Shown: positions 5,448-23,179 of the stretch, one piece after another
Position numbering within the stretch: the stretch's first letter is position 1
Layout of the letters: each line of letters begins with the position of its first letter
Virus record (IMG/VR): IMGVR_UViG_3300022074_000367
Location: 1 to 24,344 of that record
Direction: 5' to 3' (one strand)
Length of the DNA: 24,344 nucleotides
Source: a virus
Program-made: the position numbers and the translations under genes
Notes under the pieces: generated by a model
The model's database searches: none
What the model was told of the DNA's origin: nothing
Seen by the model: only the letters and a program-made list of their open reading frames with translations

Positions 5448-5455
5448 TAATTAGT
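5448..5455 (-). promoter_or_regulatory. ACTANTTA motif before the gp13-like gene
   Basis: Minus-strand ACTAATTA, 23 nt before the ATG at 5425 and just downstream of the terminator hairpin at 5469-5498. The leader between motif and ATG contains the ribosome binding site AGGAG. Candidate late promoter restarting transcription into the neck genes; inferred. Confidence 0.45.
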
Positions 5456-6141: not shown

Positions 6142-6149
6142 TAATTAGT
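6142..6149 (-). promoter_or_regulatory. ACTANTTA motif before the capsid-associated gene
   Basis: Minus-strand ACTAATTA in the 182-nt gap after gp23, 98 nt before ATG 6044 and just downstream of the gp23 terminator. Candidate late promoter by recurrence and position. Confidence 0.45.
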
Positions 6150-9243: not shown

Positions 9244-9264
9244 CTACATCTAAATAGTATGTAG
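9244..9264. repeat. Small inverted repeat with ACTANTTA in its loop
   Basis: Six-base perfect arms CTACAT (9244-9249) and ATGTAG (9259-9264) enclose a nine-base loop containing minus-strand ACTATTTA. It sits 36 nt before the gp22 ATG. The arrangement repeats that at 2636-2670 with unrelated arm sequences. Confidence 0.55.
9251..9258 (-). promoter_or_regulatory. ACTANTTA motif before gp22
   Basis: Minus-strand ACTATTTA preceded by AT, 43 nt before ATG 9208. Candidate late promoter for the scaffold-capsid pair; inferred from recurrence. Confidence 0.45.
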
Positions 9265-9618: not shown

Positions 9619-9626
9619 TAAGTAGT
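9619..9626 (-). promoter_or_regulatory. ACTANTTA motif before the bS21 gene
   Basis: Minus-strand ACTACTTA preceded by AT, 30 nt before the GTG start at 9589. Candidate late promoter by recurrence. Confidence 0.4.
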
Positions 9627-9636
9627 ATCCTATAAA

Positions 9637-10356
9637 TTAATCAACACCATTGATTTTGCCAATGTTGGCTGTGGCGACTCCATCAACCTTTGCAATGTTT
9701 GCAGCAGCTACGCCCATAACATTGTGTGTGTAGCCGGTCGCTAGGGTATAATTTAAAACAAGGGGTGTAGTTCCTGTTCTTCCGTCAAAATCAAAACGGT
9801 TGATCGCATCACCGCTTGAGGGTGCATTGTTTGTAAAATCATGGTCATGGTTAAATATGGTAACATTGAAAACACTATTACTTACCATATCACTTAGCGC
9901 AGTTGCATTAAATGTTATTGATAGTGCCCCTGTTCCGGTTACCGTAAAAGCACTTGAATACGCCGTGGCCGTTGAAGCATACGAAGCTCCTGATTGTGAT
10001 GCTGTGCAGCCCGGAGCAGATGTAAAGTCTGCGGCTGCGATGTCGGTCGATAGATCTGGCTTTGAGCCCTTTACAAGAATACCTGTTACGCCGCTGCCGT
10101 CAGTGTCAAGAAGTGTTTTGATATTAACATCTAGAGTCGCACTAGCAACGGTTGATGTAATACCTGAAGTATCAAAGGCATAAAAGCCTCTAAATATAAA
10201 CTGGGTGCCTCTGCTTAAAGACGCAACAATAAGGTCGTCAGTATCTGATAGGTCTACGAATGTAGAGAACGATGCATTTCCGTCTCTGGCGTCGGCAAAA
10301 TCTGCGTCTGCCTCTCGAACAACACCACTGGTGCTGGCGCATGCAATGGTTGGCAT
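9637..10356 (-). CDS. DNRLRE-like probable fibre-associated virion protein
   Basis: A 239-residue Ser/Thr/Asp-rich beta protein without signal peptide or membrane span. Residues about 48-80 (SRGTQFIFRGFYAFDTSGI then VASATLDVNIKTL) resemble DNRLRE-type beta-sandwich domains found in many phage fibre and adhesin-like proteins. The end carries a tandem 11-residue motif: NVMGVAAANIAK, VDGVATANIGK, then INGVD. I recall similar C-terminal tails from other phage structural proteins, possibly a docking tag, but cannot verify that. ATG 10356 overlaps the stop of the methyltransferase gene (TAATG), so translation is probably coupled to it. Function is inferred as a host-surface or fibre-tip protein. 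Confidence 0.55.
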   Translation of the reverse strand: MPTIACASTSGVVREADADFADARDGNASFSTFVDLSDTDDLIVASLSRGTQFIFRGFYAFDTSGITSTVASATLDVNIKTLLDTDGSGVTGILVKGSKPDLSTDIAAADFTSAPGCTASQSGASYASTATAYSSAFTVTGTGALSITFNATALSDMVSNSVFNVTIFNHDHDFTNNAPSSGDAINRFDFDGRTGTTPLVLNYTLATGYTHNVMGVAAANIAKVDGVATANIGKINGVD

Positions 10357-10934
10357 TATACCACCACCTTTGGTAAATAATATTTTGCGCCGGATGAATA
10401 GGGGTCTTCTACTTCAACTTCTTCATAACTAACATTATCAACAAATCCATATGCGTTGTTGCGGTCCATTACCCCATAATGATTCCAAAACGTTATAATA
10501 CTTCCAGATTTTGTTAATTGCTCGCAGGCATCTTTAAATTCAGCAAGCTTCTTGTCACCAAAAGTGTCATAAAATATCCCATCGTATATACCCAAGCTAC
10601 CTGTTACATCATGCCAGTGACCCTCAACAACAATTACATTTGGTTTGTCATCTGCCCAAACTTTTAATTTTTCTATCACTTGAGAGTGACTTTCAATTAT
10701 TGTGTGTGAAACAGGGTTCTGTTGTTGGATATAGTTGGCAGATATGCCCATGCCAAATCCAATCTCCAATATGTCTCCCCCGTTTTCACAAACCACCTCT
10801 GCGTGTCGCTTCATTAGTGGATCTTCCCACGAGCCCATGACTTCCTGATTACTGTGTGAATTGTCAGGACTATCCTCCACATTAATAGCTGTATCTGTAA
10901 AGATTAGACCTTGCTGTTCGAATTTAAGCGACAT
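10356..10934 (-). CDS. SAM-dependent methyltransferase resembling guanidinoacetate N-methyltransferase
   Basis: A 192-residue class I methyltransferase. Residues 55-63 form the SAM-binding motif I (ILEIGFGMG) and Glu81 ends the next strand (HTIIE), where it would bind the SAM ribose. The sequence closely follows guanidinoacetate methyltransferase (GAMT): VMGSWEDPLM (32-41) against VMERWETPYM in human GAMT, and YDGIFYDTF (117-125) against FDGILYDTY. From memory, the Glu of the first motif and the Asp of the second hold the guanidino group in rat GAMT; both are kept here (Glu37, Asp123). It is shorter than human GAMT (236 aa). Both ends share TAATG overlaps with neighbours, the fibre-like gene upstream and the DNRLRE-like gene downstream. 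This indicates coupled translation and suggests a virion protein or surface glycan as substrate. The true substrate is unknown: a small guanidino compound, a protein Arg or another group is possible. Confidence 0.78.
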   Translation of the reverse strand: MSLKFEQQGLIFTDTAINVEDSPDNSHSNQEVMGSWEDPLMKRHAEVVCENGGDILEIGFGMGISANYIQQQNPVSHTIIESHSQVIEKLKVWADDKPNVIVVEGHWHDVTGSLGIYDGIFYDTFGDKKLAEFKDACEQLTKSGSIITFWNHYGVMDRNNAYGFVDNVSYEEVEVEDPYSSGAKYYLPKVVV

Positions 10935-13756
10935 TACGCTGTAATCTCCACATGTGTTGCATCTGGACTGAAGTAAATAAGAACGTCGCCACCATCATCA
11001 TCAATTGCGTAACCAACGATGCGAACAAAGTCACCATTTCCAGATGGGGCTGTAAAGTCTAGGTGGCCTGCTGTTGTTGAAACATAAAGAGGCAGGCCGT
11101 CGCAGGCACCAGAGCCGGGAAGGTTTAGTATTTCTGTAGATGGGATTCGTATGAATCCTTTAATTAAACAGCCAACTGTCCGGGCCGAACCACCAAGGCC
11201 AATACCAAGCATTTGTGTTGCGCCAGTGGCAACTGCATCAGCATCCGTGCTGTCCCAAGTGCCGTCTGTGTGCAAGAAAAACAATTGCCCTGCTGTAAGA
11301 GTGTCATCCGCGCCCGGAGAGTATCTTAATATCTTGGCGCTACCAAATTGCCCGTCAGTAAGTTTGTTCTCAAAAGTTGTTGCATTGAAGTCATTAAAGA
11401 CAGCGAACCCGTCTTTGTGGTTTGAACTATCAAAGCCACCAGCCATAATTGTGTCATCGCCAGCGTTAACGCCAAATGCAATAGTAATGTTATCGGATTC
11501 TACTCTGAAGTCGTTTGTGGCGTGACCATCTTCATTGAACACCACCCCAGCGGAGGTAACTGACATGGCAACATCATTGGTGCTATATATGTGGGTCTCG
11601 AACGCTGTTTCGCCTTTGTTGATATGAAGTGCGTTTGCATTTGCATCCAAGAAAATAGCTTCATCTTCGCCTTCAGACTCAACGCGGAAGTCGCAGTCGA
11701 TGCCAGCTTCATTAACGATGACGGCACAGTTGGTTGAATTCGCAACGTCTTCGCCGCCAATAGTTAGAAGTTCTTTCACAGCGGCTGTTCCAGCGGTTCC
11801 ACCGGCCATAACAATAAACTTTATTTCACCACCTTCATCTCCTGAGGTTATATCGGTGGCATCAGCTTTAATCTGAGCATAGAAGGTGGCATTATTTCCA
11901 GAGTCCACACCCTTAAATTGTATTTGACCAAGCTTCATGTCGTCAGCCTCGGCTGTATCATCAGGATTGGTGAATATCAAGATAGGTTCGCTAGTAGTGG
12001 AGGCGTTTGAGTTTTTTAATTCTAGCACTGGGTGGGTTTCGTTTGATGTTGACTCAATTAAAAGAATTGGATCATCAAGGCCACCGATGGCGTCATTAAT
12101 AAGATGCATAACAACAGTGCTAGTTGCAGCAGTGTTATCATTCTTGACTATGACGAGTGTTCTGGCTGAGGTATCTGATGAGTCAGAAACAAGGTTTAGG
12201 ATGCCGCCTGTTGTGAGGGCGTCGGCTGTGACATCCATAACATTGGCTGTGGTTACAGCATCGGCGGTGACTCCTATTACGTCTTGGTTAATGTTGGCGG
12301 CCTCGATGGCGAGCGCCCTTTGGTCTGTATCATCATTATCGATAAGAAGAGCAACAGTGCCCGAAGTCGAATCATTCTCTATTTCAACGCCGAGTCCATC
12401 AAGTTTTATGAAACCGTCGATGGTGAAGGTTAAGTTTGCTTCGTTTGCGTCATCATCAACGGTTGTAATAGTGGTCGCGCCGTTAGTGGTAGTCTGGATT
12501 TTGAACAGATCTCCAGTATCAGCCGAACTTCTAATTAAGAAATCGTTGCCACCATCATCACAATCTATGATAAGACCTGTATTATTATCGCCTCCAGTGG
12601 TGATTACTTGCATTCCCACTGCATTGCCAGATCCATTTGTGCCAGCCGTGGCAGTAATAGTTGCTCCGGTTACATTAGCAGTGCCTGCATTTGCTGCGTG
12701 GGTGAGCGTTGCACTAACATCAAGACCAAACATATTGTTAACGCCGTTAGTGGCTGTAGTATTATCCATATCAAGGAAAATACCATACATTGCATTATTG
12801 CTTGTCGAAGCGCCTGTCTTATCAAAATCAATATTTAATGCATAGATAGTTTGTGCAGAAGTGTCAGAGTAATTATGATCGAGATGGATACCATAATGCC
12901 CACTATCCATAACCATTTCTAAGCCTTTCACTTCAGTGGAGGCTGTATTATCATTTGTGATCTTCACTAGGGATCTGGCTGTGGTAGAATTTGAGTCTGA
13001 GACAAGATTCAAGATAGCGCCTGACGTTAGAGCATCGGCTGAGACATCCATTACGTTGGCAGTGGTTACTGCGTCGGCTGCAATATCGATTACGTCTGCG
13101 TCGATGTTGGCGGCGTCGATACTAAGAGCAATTTGGTCTGTATCATCATTATCAATGGTCAGGGCAGCAGCACCAGTGGTTGAGCCATTTTCAATCTCGA
13201 CACCTGCAACTGTAAATTTAGTTGCTGCACCATCAATTGCAAGCACGTCGTTTCCGTCTTCATCGTATTCGATGGATGCGTCGTTGCCAGTTCCAAATTG
13301 CAGTTTCTTATCATCAATTACTGTTAAGTGACCGGAGCTATCATCAAACGTTAAACTAGCAACGCCACCAAACGATCCGCCGTTATTATATTGAATCTGC
13401 GTGTCTGAGCCACCGGGCGAACCAGACCCGCCACCGCTCGCGATCATCGAAGTTGCTGTGCCACCGTCGTCTTTAAAGTACGGTACATCACCGTTGACAT
13501 AAATTACACCAAAACCACTCGCAGGCGTGTCAGCATGAGTGCCTATATCCTTGAGCGTAAGGGTGGTATCAATCTGGACCCCTGCACTAAATGTGGCGCT
13601 GTTAGCAGTCAGTTGATCGTTGACTTTTAAGCTATCAACAATTAGCGGGTCTGACCCGTAACGCTCAATCGCCGCTGCAATACGGGGGGCGAGAATGTTA
13701 AGTGATCTAAGAAACTCGTTTCTAAATTCGGTTCCTACTAATTTACGATTGGACAT
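10934..13756 (-). CDS. Large repetitive fibre-like virion protein
   Basis: A 940-residue acidic protein rich in Asp, Thr, Ala and Asn, with no signal peptide. After a helical N-terminus (residues 1-50) comes SDTQIQYNNGGSFGG and a LTFDD block (118-146), a common phage fibre module. A duplicated module of about 90 residues follows (185-275 and 456-544), sharing TADAVTTANVMDV-type sequence and IDNDDTDQ. Further beta-repeat blocks use DFRVES and IFTNPDD. A C-terminal domain from about 832 contains GTWDSTDADA, MLGIGLGG and GCLIKGFIRI, another module I recognise from phage fibres. The size and repeats suggest a trimeric fibre; its place among head genes leaves head fibre, whisker or tail fibre open. 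TAGGG lies six bases before the ATG, and an ACTANTTA motif lies 28 nt upstream. The stop overlaps the methyltransferase start. Confidence 0.7.
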   Translation of the reverse strand: MSNRKLVGTEFRNEFLRSLNILAPRIAAAIERYGSDPLIVDSLKVNDQLTANSATFSAGVQIDTTLTLKDIGTHADTPASGFGVIYVNGDVPYFKDDGGTATSMIASGGGSGSPGGSDTQIQYNNGGSFGGVASLTFDDSSGHLTVIDDKKLQFGTGNDASIEYDEDGNDVLAIDGAATKFTVAGVEIENGSTTGAAALTIDNDDTDQIALSIDAANIDADVIDIAADAVTTANVMDVSADALTSGAILNLVSDSNSTTARSLVKITNDNTASTEVKGLEMVMDSGHYGIHLDHNYSDTSAQTIYALNIDFDKTGASTSNNAMYGIFLDMDNTTATNGVNNMFGLDVSATLTHAANAGTANVTGATITATAGTNGSGNAVGMQVITTGGDNNTGLIIDCDDGGNDFLIRSSADTGDLFKIQTTTNGATTITTVDDDANEANLTFTIDGFIKLDGLGVEIENDSTSGTVALLIDNDDTDQRALAIEAANINQDVIGVTADAVTTANVMDVTADALTTGGILNLVSDSSDTSARTLVIVKNDNTAATSTVVMHLINDAIGGLDDPILLIESTSNETHPVLELKNSNASTTSEPILIFTNPDDTAEADDMKLGQIQFKGVDSGNNATFYAQIKADATDITSGDEGGEIKFIVMAGGTAGTAAVKELLTIGGEDVANSTNCAVIVNEAGIDCDFRVESEGEDEAIFLDANANALHINKGETAFETHIYSTNDVAMSVTSAGVVFNEDGHATNDFRVESDNITIAFGVNAGDDTIMAGGFDSSNHKDGFAVFNDFNATTFENKLTDGQFGSAKILRYSPGADDTLTAGQLFFLHTDGTWDSTDADAVATGATQMLGIGLGGSARTVGCLIKGFIRIPSTEILNLPGSGACDGLPLYVSTTAGHLDFTAPSGNGDFVRIVGYAIDDDGGDVLIYFSPDATHVEITA
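12125..12391 (-). repeat. Fibre internal duplication, second copy
   Basis: This copy encodes about residues 456-544 of the fibre-like protein (GVEIENDSTSGTVALLIDND through VKNDNTAA). It matches the copy at 12932-13204 in protein and, in patches, in DNA, with a 22-base identical stretch around the TIDNDDTDQ-type codons. The copies are about 0.8 kb apart in the same orientation. Confidence 0.75.
12932..13204 (-). repeat. Fibre internal duplication, first copy
   Basis: This copy encodes about residues 185-275 of the fibre-like protein, including IDNDDTDQIALSIDAANI, ADAVTTANVMDVSADAL and SGAILNLVSDSNSTTARS. It is the N-terminal partner of the duplication at 12125-12391. The repeat probably reflects duplication of a shaft module. 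Confidence 0.75.
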
Positions 13757-13783: not shown

Positions 13784-13791
13784 TAATTAGT
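13784..13791 (-). promoter_or_regulatory. ACTANTTA motif before the fibre-like gene
   Basis: Minus-strand ACTAATTA, 28 nt before ATG 13756, followed at once by a small palindrome (TTACT-AC-AGTAA). Candidate late promoter for the fibre, methyltransferase and DNRLRE-like genes, which overlap one another. Confidence 0.45.
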
Positions 13792-13808: not shown

Positions 13809-14387
13809 TTAGAAATTGGCACCAAATAGCGTGATGATGAATTTGCCTGCCGTGTAAGTCCCGCCAGAATTTGCGCCGGATCCGTTAGCTAAATACAGGA
13901 AGCGGCCACCAGCAGATGAAGCAGCATTAATGTTTGTGTCAACTGCACTAACTTTATACATACCACCGGTATAGTCGCCTCCTGCCGCGATAAGGACAAC
14001 CGAAGATCCTGAGCTATCGTATGTAGCGTCTTCAGCCAGCGAGACCGTGCTCACCACCAAATCAATGTCGGCAGTAGTGTTTGTTCCAGCAGGTGCTTCG
14101 ACACAAGCCATTTCGACTTTGTATACCTTCCCAGTGTTAGCAAGTTCGGTTTTAGTGATAAAAGCGGCTGCGGCTCCGTCCTCACCGATAATATCCTTAA
14201 CTGTACCAGAAACCACCAAGCCTTCAAGATCAACAAGAATTGTTGTTATAATCTGGCCATTAATTTTTTGAATTTTAGTTTCAACTTTTGCGGCACCGTC
14301 AAAACCGGCACCGGCTGCGGTAGGGGTTGCAAAGCGAGATGTTTCCTCTCCTGCTAATATAGTTCTTGATGGCCTAAAGTTTCCCAT
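13809..14387 (-). CDS. Probable virion structural protein
   Basis: I do not recognise a named family for this 192-residue protein. It is Gly/Ala/Thr-rich and beta-like, without signal peptide or membrane segment. It opens MGNFRPSRTILAGEETSRFA, continues with QKINGQIITTILVDLEGLVV and ends in a Gly/Ser/Asn-rich part (LYLANGSGANSGGTYTAG) and KFIITLFGANF. Composition and location beside the fibre-like gene suggest a virion surface or fibre-base protein. AGAGGT lies upstream of ATG 14387, which follows the previous gene by 18 nt. The following gap holds an ACTANTTA motif, so the fibre gene may start a separate transcript. Confidence 0.5.
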   Translation of the reverse strand: MGNFRPSRTILAGEETSRFATPTAAGAGFDGAAKVETKIQKINGQIITTILVDLEGLVVSGTVKDIIGEDGAAAAFITKTELANTGKVYKVEMACVEAPAGTNTTADIDLVVSTVSLAEDATYDSSGSSVVLIAAGGDYTGGMYKVSAVDTNINAASSAGGRFLYLANGSGANSGGTYTAGKFIITLFGANF

Positions 14388-14967: not shown

Positions 14968-14975
14968 TAAATAGT
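14968..14975 (-). promoter_or_regulatory. ACTANTTA motif before the 180-residue virion gene
   Basis: Minus-strand ACTATTTA immediately after the stop codon of the 143-residue gene and 20 nt before ATG 14948. Candidate late promoter at the start of the inserted cassette; the leader would be very short but still includes GAGGAG. Confidence 0.4.
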
Positions 14976-22797: not shown

Positions 22798-23179
22798 TAT
22801 TTGGTCTCCATCCTGTTTTCCAGCGTTGTTCGCGTCCCTCAACCCATTGAATATAGCAATTACGACAACATTCAAATTTTTTCATGTACACATCATCTTT
22901 TGAGTCAAAAGAATATGTATGGCACACAGGGCAAGTTCTGCTTTGGCTTTCTCTATTAAGTAGTTTTTTAGGGATCAAAACACCATTAACTTCTGTTTTC
23001 TGATCCAATTCATCTAATAATACTTCTTTTTGCCTTATCTTCTCAATCTGTTCTTGATAAATTTTCTCTTTTTCGTCGTTCCAGTTGCCTCTTGGGTTTG
23101 CAATTGCCTCTTGGCCATACTTTTCTGCGATAGCCTTCTCTAGTTTGGCTATATAATTTGGATCTTTGTGCTTCTTCAT
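22781..23179 (-). CDS. Protein with a four-Cys zinc-binding-like cluster
   Basis: A 132-residue protein. The first 60 residues are highly charged and helical (NDEKEKIYQEQIEKIRQKEV). The C-terminal half carries CPVC (Cys83, Cys86) and CCRNC (Cys104, Cys105, Cys108), a CxxC-x18-CxxC spacing typical of a zinc ribbon or treble-clef-like structural site, followed by YIQWVEGREQRWKTGWRP. No nuclease motif (HNH) is visible. It lies between the lysis-type genes and the packaging genes; a role in DNA or RNA binding is plausible but unproven. ATG 23179 follows the previous stop by one base, with AGGTG as a weak ribosome binding site formed partly by that stop. Confidence 0.55.
   Translation of the reverse strand: MKKHKDPNYIAKLEKAIAEKYGQEAIANPRGNWNDEKEKIYQEQIEKIRQKEVLLDELDQKTEVNGVLIPKKLLNRESQSRTCPVCHTYSFDSKDDVYMKKFECCRNCYIQWVEGREQRWKTGWRPNNGNNT

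Follow-up and report, generated by a model that had tools for sequence, protein, structure and literature searches.

What is a guanidinoacetate N-methyltransferase (GAMT)-like enzyme doing inside a set of phage virion genes? The question is raised by IMG/VR record IMGVR_UViG_3300022074_000367, a virus record of 24,344 bases that was analysed over its whole length (hereafter the window). A first-pass annotation, made from the sequence alone, had described a GAMT-like methyltransferase translationally coupled between a fibre-like gene and a DNRLRE-like gene, the product of which is here called DN. The three open reading frames (ORFs) of 940, 192 and 239 codons were confirmed on the minus strand, the methyltransferase carried the annotated motifs VMGSWEDPLM and YDGIFYDTF, and both gene junctions were indeed TAATG overlaps (GTAATGTC and ATAATGCC). 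Judged from the sequences, it is somewhat probable that the enzyme, a member of the GAMT family, acts as a protein arginine methyltransferase with Arg49 of DN, the adjoining putative virion module, as its dedicated target. The features on which the argument turns are as follows.

10934..13756, minus strand: fibre-like virion protein, 940 amino acids, with a C-terminal domain of type A (...GDFVRIVGYAIDDD...YFSPDATHVEI); upstream partner in nearly all loci
10356..10934, minus strand: GAMT-family S-adenosylmethionine (SAM) methyltransferase, 192 amino acids, named from its sequence match and predicted fold; 408 to 457 viral relatives in IMG/VR
10824..10826, minus strand: codon of Glu37, aligned with GAMT Glu45; invariant in 82/82
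10566..10568, minus strand: codon of Asp123, aligned with GAMT Asp134, the proton acceptor (PMC12471008); invariant in 82/82
9637..10356, minus strand: DN, DNRLRE/CBM96-like virion-type protein, 239 amino acids, the proposed substrate; adjoins the enzyme in 112/114 distinct viral loci
10210..10212, minus strand: codon of DN Arg49 in an RG/RGG hairpin loop, the proposed methylation site; kept with the enzyme, often lost without it
10189..10191, minus strand: codon of DN Arg56, a generic DNRLRE/CBM96 arginine; invariant with or without the enzyme
9637..9720, minus strand: C-terminal tail of DN, GVAAANIAKVDGVATANIGKINGVD, of K-type and matched to A-type fibres; proposed attachment tail

Linkage of the enzyme to the fibre-like protein and DN

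The contigs compared were fragments of uncultured phages, mostly marine as inferred from sample names. Among the 114 distinct viral loci with room downstream of the enzyme, DN lay directly downstream in 110, the gap at the junction being -1 in 69 and 0 in 24. In L161 and L153, DN was directly upstream of the enzyme, giving the order fibre-DN-enzyme, and the fibre was found upstream nearly always. The arrangement recurred in more than 110 distinct loci and is therefore not due to chance. Moreover, in few loci did the flanks contain the T4-like genes seen in the window; the unit therefore occurs in varied phages. The search for the same three-gene order, which had been suggested as a check on the annotated unit, thus bore it out, and homologues without their neighbours were very rare. 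DN was missing in two of the 114 loci (L004 and L086, of huge-phage type), where the fibre still stood upstream and DN was not found elsewhere in the records. Among isolate phages, the sole match to the enzyme was one uncultured 635-kb phage record, and two DN queries matched none. In L161 (5312-5998) and L153 (2287-2967), an ANIAKVNG-type repeat had moved from the C-terminus of DN to its N-terminus.

The C-terminal type of the fibre matched the tail type of DN at 53:0 and 32:1 (Fisher, 8e-23); fibre and DN are therefore partners, and because the types match almost perfectly, the tail of DN probably docks on the fibre. In addition, the ratio of nonsynonymous to synonymous substitution rates (dN/dS) between the window and L002 was 0.23 for the enzyme and 0.20 for DN; both genes are under purifying selection.

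Active site of the enzyme and Arg49 of DN

Scans with Pfam, PHROGs and NCBIfam returned no family above cut-off for the enzyme. The best sequence match in PDB was GAMT, both for the single sequence (phmmer E 4e-17, with nothing else convincing) and for a four-sequence profile (E 4e-25), and in the alignment Glu37 fell on Glu45 of GAMT and Asp123 on the Asp of its YDTY motif. The AlphaFold2 model (predicted local distance difference test, pLDDT, 88.9) found human GAMT (3orh) as its best Foldseek match, with a template modelling (TM) score of 0.80 and E 1.8e-13; the next class was the spermidine synthases (E 1e-8), and no classical protein arginine methyltransferase fold of the PRMT1 type occurred among the 50 best of 830 significant matches. 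The annotated resemblance to GAMT, including the Glu and Asp thought to hold the guanidino group, was therefore upheld by sequence and fold, with no better structural class. A loss of these two residues in homologues, which the annotation had named as evidence against it, did not occur: Trp36, Glu37, Met41 and Asp123 were unvarying across all 82 sequences, as was the SAM motif.

The enzyme thus resembles GAMT (PDB 1xcj, 3orh) in the W..E and D of the guanidino site, in the SAM-binding motif and in being matched best by it in sequence and fold. It differs in that the core alone aligns; the viral enzymes formed one group apart from seven cellular sequences (tree support 0.86), and in alignments they appeared to be missing about 10 residues, a loop that the cellular relatives carry after the catalytic Asp. 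The Rmt2-type delta-N protein arginine methyltransferases of fungi are presumably GAMT-like kin, likened to the viral enzyme by description and not by sequence. To our knowledge, neither these enzymes nor BlsL has any connection with phages or virions. BlsL, from the blasticidin S pathway, is GAMT-like and methylates a guanidino delta-N (PMC5572114), and it too was set beside the viral enzyme by description and not by sequence.

DN was far more divergent than the enzyme, with copies linked to the methyltransferase falling to 21-30% identity to the window copy, and Arg49 and Arg56 were the sole residues that never varied (110/110). Homologues of DN were retrieved with patterns in which Arg49 played no part (R49-blind), and many of the copies had no enzyme beside them, the fibre abutting DN directly. 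The enzyme was not found elsewhere in 19 such records, except in L221, whose cut end bears an enzyme tail. Without the enzyme, Arg49 was replaced by Lys (L171/L172) or Ile (L236), replaced by Phe or deleted (L186), or deleted (L241); in the same first set it was kept in L194, L217/L218 and L231, with L176 ambiguous. Of the lineages gained by a further R49-blind scan, L300, L302/L304 and L311 lacked the arginine, whereas L294/L298 and L314 had it. Arg49 was therefore absent in about 7 of 13 methyltransferase-less lineages, as against 0 of about 130 methyltransferase-linked copies complete enough to read (p about 1e-8; lineages were counted by hand on a FastTree tree, and the Fisher tests take related sequences as independent). 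Apparent exceptions in the enzyme-linked set were rejected as artefacts of alignment or truncation.

In a scan of every conserved column comparing 134 DN with the enzyme and 10 without it, Arg49 ranked top (p 5e-7), followed by its neighbour Gly50 (0.003), and all others were above 0.02. These methyltransferase-less DN homologues, and the loss of Arg49 among them, are new in the present analysis.

The DN model (pLDDT 83.9) placed Arg49 in a turn between predicted strands 43-48 and 52-62. The arginine stood in an RG context in 121/134 sequences and in RGG in 88/134, and RGGG loops were one residue longer. The best PDB fold matches were carbohydrate-binding modules (CBMs), among them 8wab (1.3e-4) and 7vbo, the CBM96 type structure (1.9e-3). 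The DNRLRE profile NF033679 matched 6 of 54 DN members (best 1.2e-6); the annotated DNRLRE likeness of the downstream gene therefore stood for the family, but the window copy itself was unmatched. DN also differs from CBM96/DNRLRE domains in being a stand-alone protein of a virion-gene unit, with an extra tail and the RG/RGG hairpin. Alginate binding by CBM96 requires Arg36, with a contribution from Lys27 (PMC9971899). A weak alignment with 7vbo (E 1, with a one-residue gap) set DN Arg56 on Arg36 and Arg49 on Lys27; this correspondence is tentative, because the profile comparison aligned only the stretch after Arg56. If it holds, a methyl group on Arg49 would lie on the edge of the ligand groove, where it could tune glycan binding. 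Bacterial DNRLRE domains, considered as a control for Arg49, were too distant for alignment.

A protein arginine methyltransferase for the RG loop is the simplest reading, because an enzyme of a kind that holds guanidino groups is fixed beside DN, in which the only residue that depends on the enzyme is an arginine of an exposed loop. The three genes would then form a host-recognition cassette, in which a fibre-like protein is followed by a dedicated GAMT-family N-methyltransferase and a small DNRLRE/CBM96-fold protein probably seated on the fibre. Glu37 and Asp123 would hold the guanidino group as in GAMT, and the methyl group of SAM would pass to a single arginine, Arg49, in the exposed RG/RGG beta-hairpin of DN, presumably translated from the same message just after the enzyme. 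Methylation may tune the binding of DN to a surface polysaccharide, probably anionic, or else its assembly on the fibre. That the phages encode a substrate-dedicated arginine methyltransferase of the GAMT family that matures their own receptor-binding carbohydrate module at one RG(G) arginine has, in our estimate, an even chance of being correct. The virion-related target supposed by the annotation appears likely as far as a virion-linked arginine is concerned, but the residue indicated is Arg49 of DN, the product of the downstream gene, and not a group on the fibre or the host surface.

Several points weigh against Arg49 as the target. About 6 of the 13 methyltransferase-less lineages (the arginine-bearing ones named above, with L176 ambiguously among them) retain Arg49 or a nearby arginine, which is therefore of use even where the enzyme is absent. 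Since the contigs are fragmentary, the enzyme may lie elsewhere in these phages. Moreover, L004 and L086 carry the enzyme without DN; the target there must therefore be a different one. The pocket of GAMT fits a small molecule, the unit is known from genes of uncultured contigs alone, and the test statistics were not fully corrected for relatedness, with the lineages counted by hand.

Alternative explanations and earlier work

Firstly, the enzyme might modify another virion group, either an arginine of the fibre or Arg56 of DN, which we consider unlikely. A fibre gene precedes the enzyme in almost every locus, even in the DN-less L004 and L086, and Arg56 is invariant. However, Arg56 was kept equally well without the enzyme (10/10), and the C-termini of the fibres represent two or more dissimilar types and share no arginine; the fibre as a common substrate was therefore rejected. 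In L004 (9667-11955) and L086 (1-2463), the fibres ahead of the DN-less enzyme share a C-terminal region at 37% identity, in which an arginine at a similar position in both immediately precedes a Y-x-LPD stretch (SRGTSVINYYLPD in L004 and DSRAGLTVATYNLPD in L086), a possible alternative target.

Secondly, the association with Arg49 might reflect inherited linkage, with the enzyme and a single allele of DN passed on jointly, or a contact that binds the enzyme, the true substrate being the host surface or a small molecule. Enzyme and DN lie side by side and move as a pair, and some methyltransferase-less lineages also keep Arg49. Against this, Arg49 was retained even in the most divergent methyltransferase-linked copies, the methyltransferase-less DN were scattered on separate branches among methyltransferase-bearing ones, and Arg49 alone stood out among the conserved columns; L172, with up to 71% identity to methyltransferase-linked relatives, nevertheless had Lys49. 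This explanation, too, seems improbable.

Thirdly, the gene may be an auxiliary metabolic gene by which creatine or another methylated guanidino metabolite is made in the infected cell. The enzyme belongs to the GAMT family with its acid pair intact, and a 2024 ocean survey proposed creatine synthesis for viral GAMT (K00542), which probably belongs to the same gene family; among auxiliary metabolic genes it showed the strongest enrichment in viruses, 85-fold relative to microbial homologues (PMC11360552). In the accessible part of that source, the assignment was made without an analysis of gene neighbours. Few cellular relatives were found: apart from the seed genome, a match at E 1e-15 was present in 2 of 397 genomes from a single phylum. 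The cellular GAMT-like gene of L083 (7701-8567) lies beside ABC-transporter genes and that of L084 (7920-8585), in a cyanobacterial metagenome-assembled genome, near an amidinotransferase-like gene named by eye; these neighbourhoods are possible guanidino-metabolite pathways, and the latter favours a creatine-type role. The viral gene differs in lying inside a virion-gene unit, and its amidinotransferase partner (PF02274) was found in 0 of 24 viral records, which are fragments and might rely on a host enzyme. A profile search for creatine kinase (PF00217) was uninformative, since no control genome gave a match. Furthermore, the gene is fixed in the fibre/CBM-like unit of many kinds of phages with 0- to 1-base junctions, and a metabolic role leaves the tracking of the enzyme by Arg49 unexplained. 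We therefore regard this explanation as distinctly doubtful.

Finally, a catalytically degenerate GAMT-like enzyme serving as an assembly chaperone or structural part would fit its small size (about 190 amino acids) and the apparent absence of the loop after the catalytic Asp, but is hardly credible given the invariant SAM motif, Glu37 and Asp123 and the dN/dS of 0.23.

Methylation of virion proteins as such has a precedent, as mass spectrometry revealed Arg and Lys methylation, arising during infection, on virion proteins of Cellulophaga phages, including a tail fibre (PMC13288928). No methyltransferase is known to be encoded by those phages, and host enzymes were proposed (PMC13288928). The present phages, in contrast, bring their own enzyme beside its proposed target. 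No report of a phage-encoded methyltransferase tied to a fibre or receptor-binding protein was found in the open-licence literature, and we know of no earlier phage-encoded arginine methyltransferase tied to a receptor-binding module. The statement in the first-pass annotation that no system of this kind had been described thus holds for a phage methyltransferase tied to a fibre, but not for virus-encoded GAMT itself, which the ocean survey already reports (PMC11360552). If Arg49 is the substrate, virion maturation of this sort would form a class not described before, the GAMT fold would have an activity new to it in prokaryotic viruses, and the interpretation of viral GAMT as a creatine gene would fall. 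A viral gene catalogued for creatine synthesis, carried by hundreds of uncultured phage contigs, would then be seen as a probable enzyme of virion maturation, with a single residue named as the point to probe. The gene neighbourhood is accordingly worth checking before a viral enzyme is named an auxiliary metabolic gene.

Gene module and promoter-like motif of the window

The structural module of the window lies on the minus strand. PHROG matches identified a major head protein and a head-tail adaptor, and terminase, portal, prohead protease and scaffold were assigned from their own sequences; the three overlapping genes sit between the putative protease and scaffold. As annotated, these genes stand behind a single motif:

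13784..13791, minus strand: ACTAATTA, promoter-like motif ahead of the unit, 28 nt 5' of the fibre start

The window contained ten copies of ACTANTTA, every one of them on the coding strand, as compared with 3.5 expected on both strands, and no shuffle gave 10. They lie mostly shortly 5' of ORFs (minus strand, 13784-13791, 14968-14975, 9251-9258, 9619-9626, 5448-5455, 6142-6149, 22957-22964 and others), and ACTANTTA is probably a late-promoter-type element of this phage group.

Some further observations concern tails and neighbours. The protein encoded at 13809-14387 (minus strand) ends in FGANF, the same short C-terminal tail as that of F-type DN elsewhere, and tails of this type may be interchangeable attachment tags. 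Relatives of DN of 690-730 amino acids ending in FFGANF (L203-L212, e.g. L208:5001-5720) occurred without the enzyme and often had Gln at the position of Arg56; they constitute a longer virion-protein family without the enzyme. In L003 (3807-8734), from a phage of 270 kb, the unit precedes ORFs resembling a 2-oxoglutarate (2OG)-Fe(II) oxygenase and glycosyltransferases, and this stretch is possibly a larger virion- or surface-modifying island.

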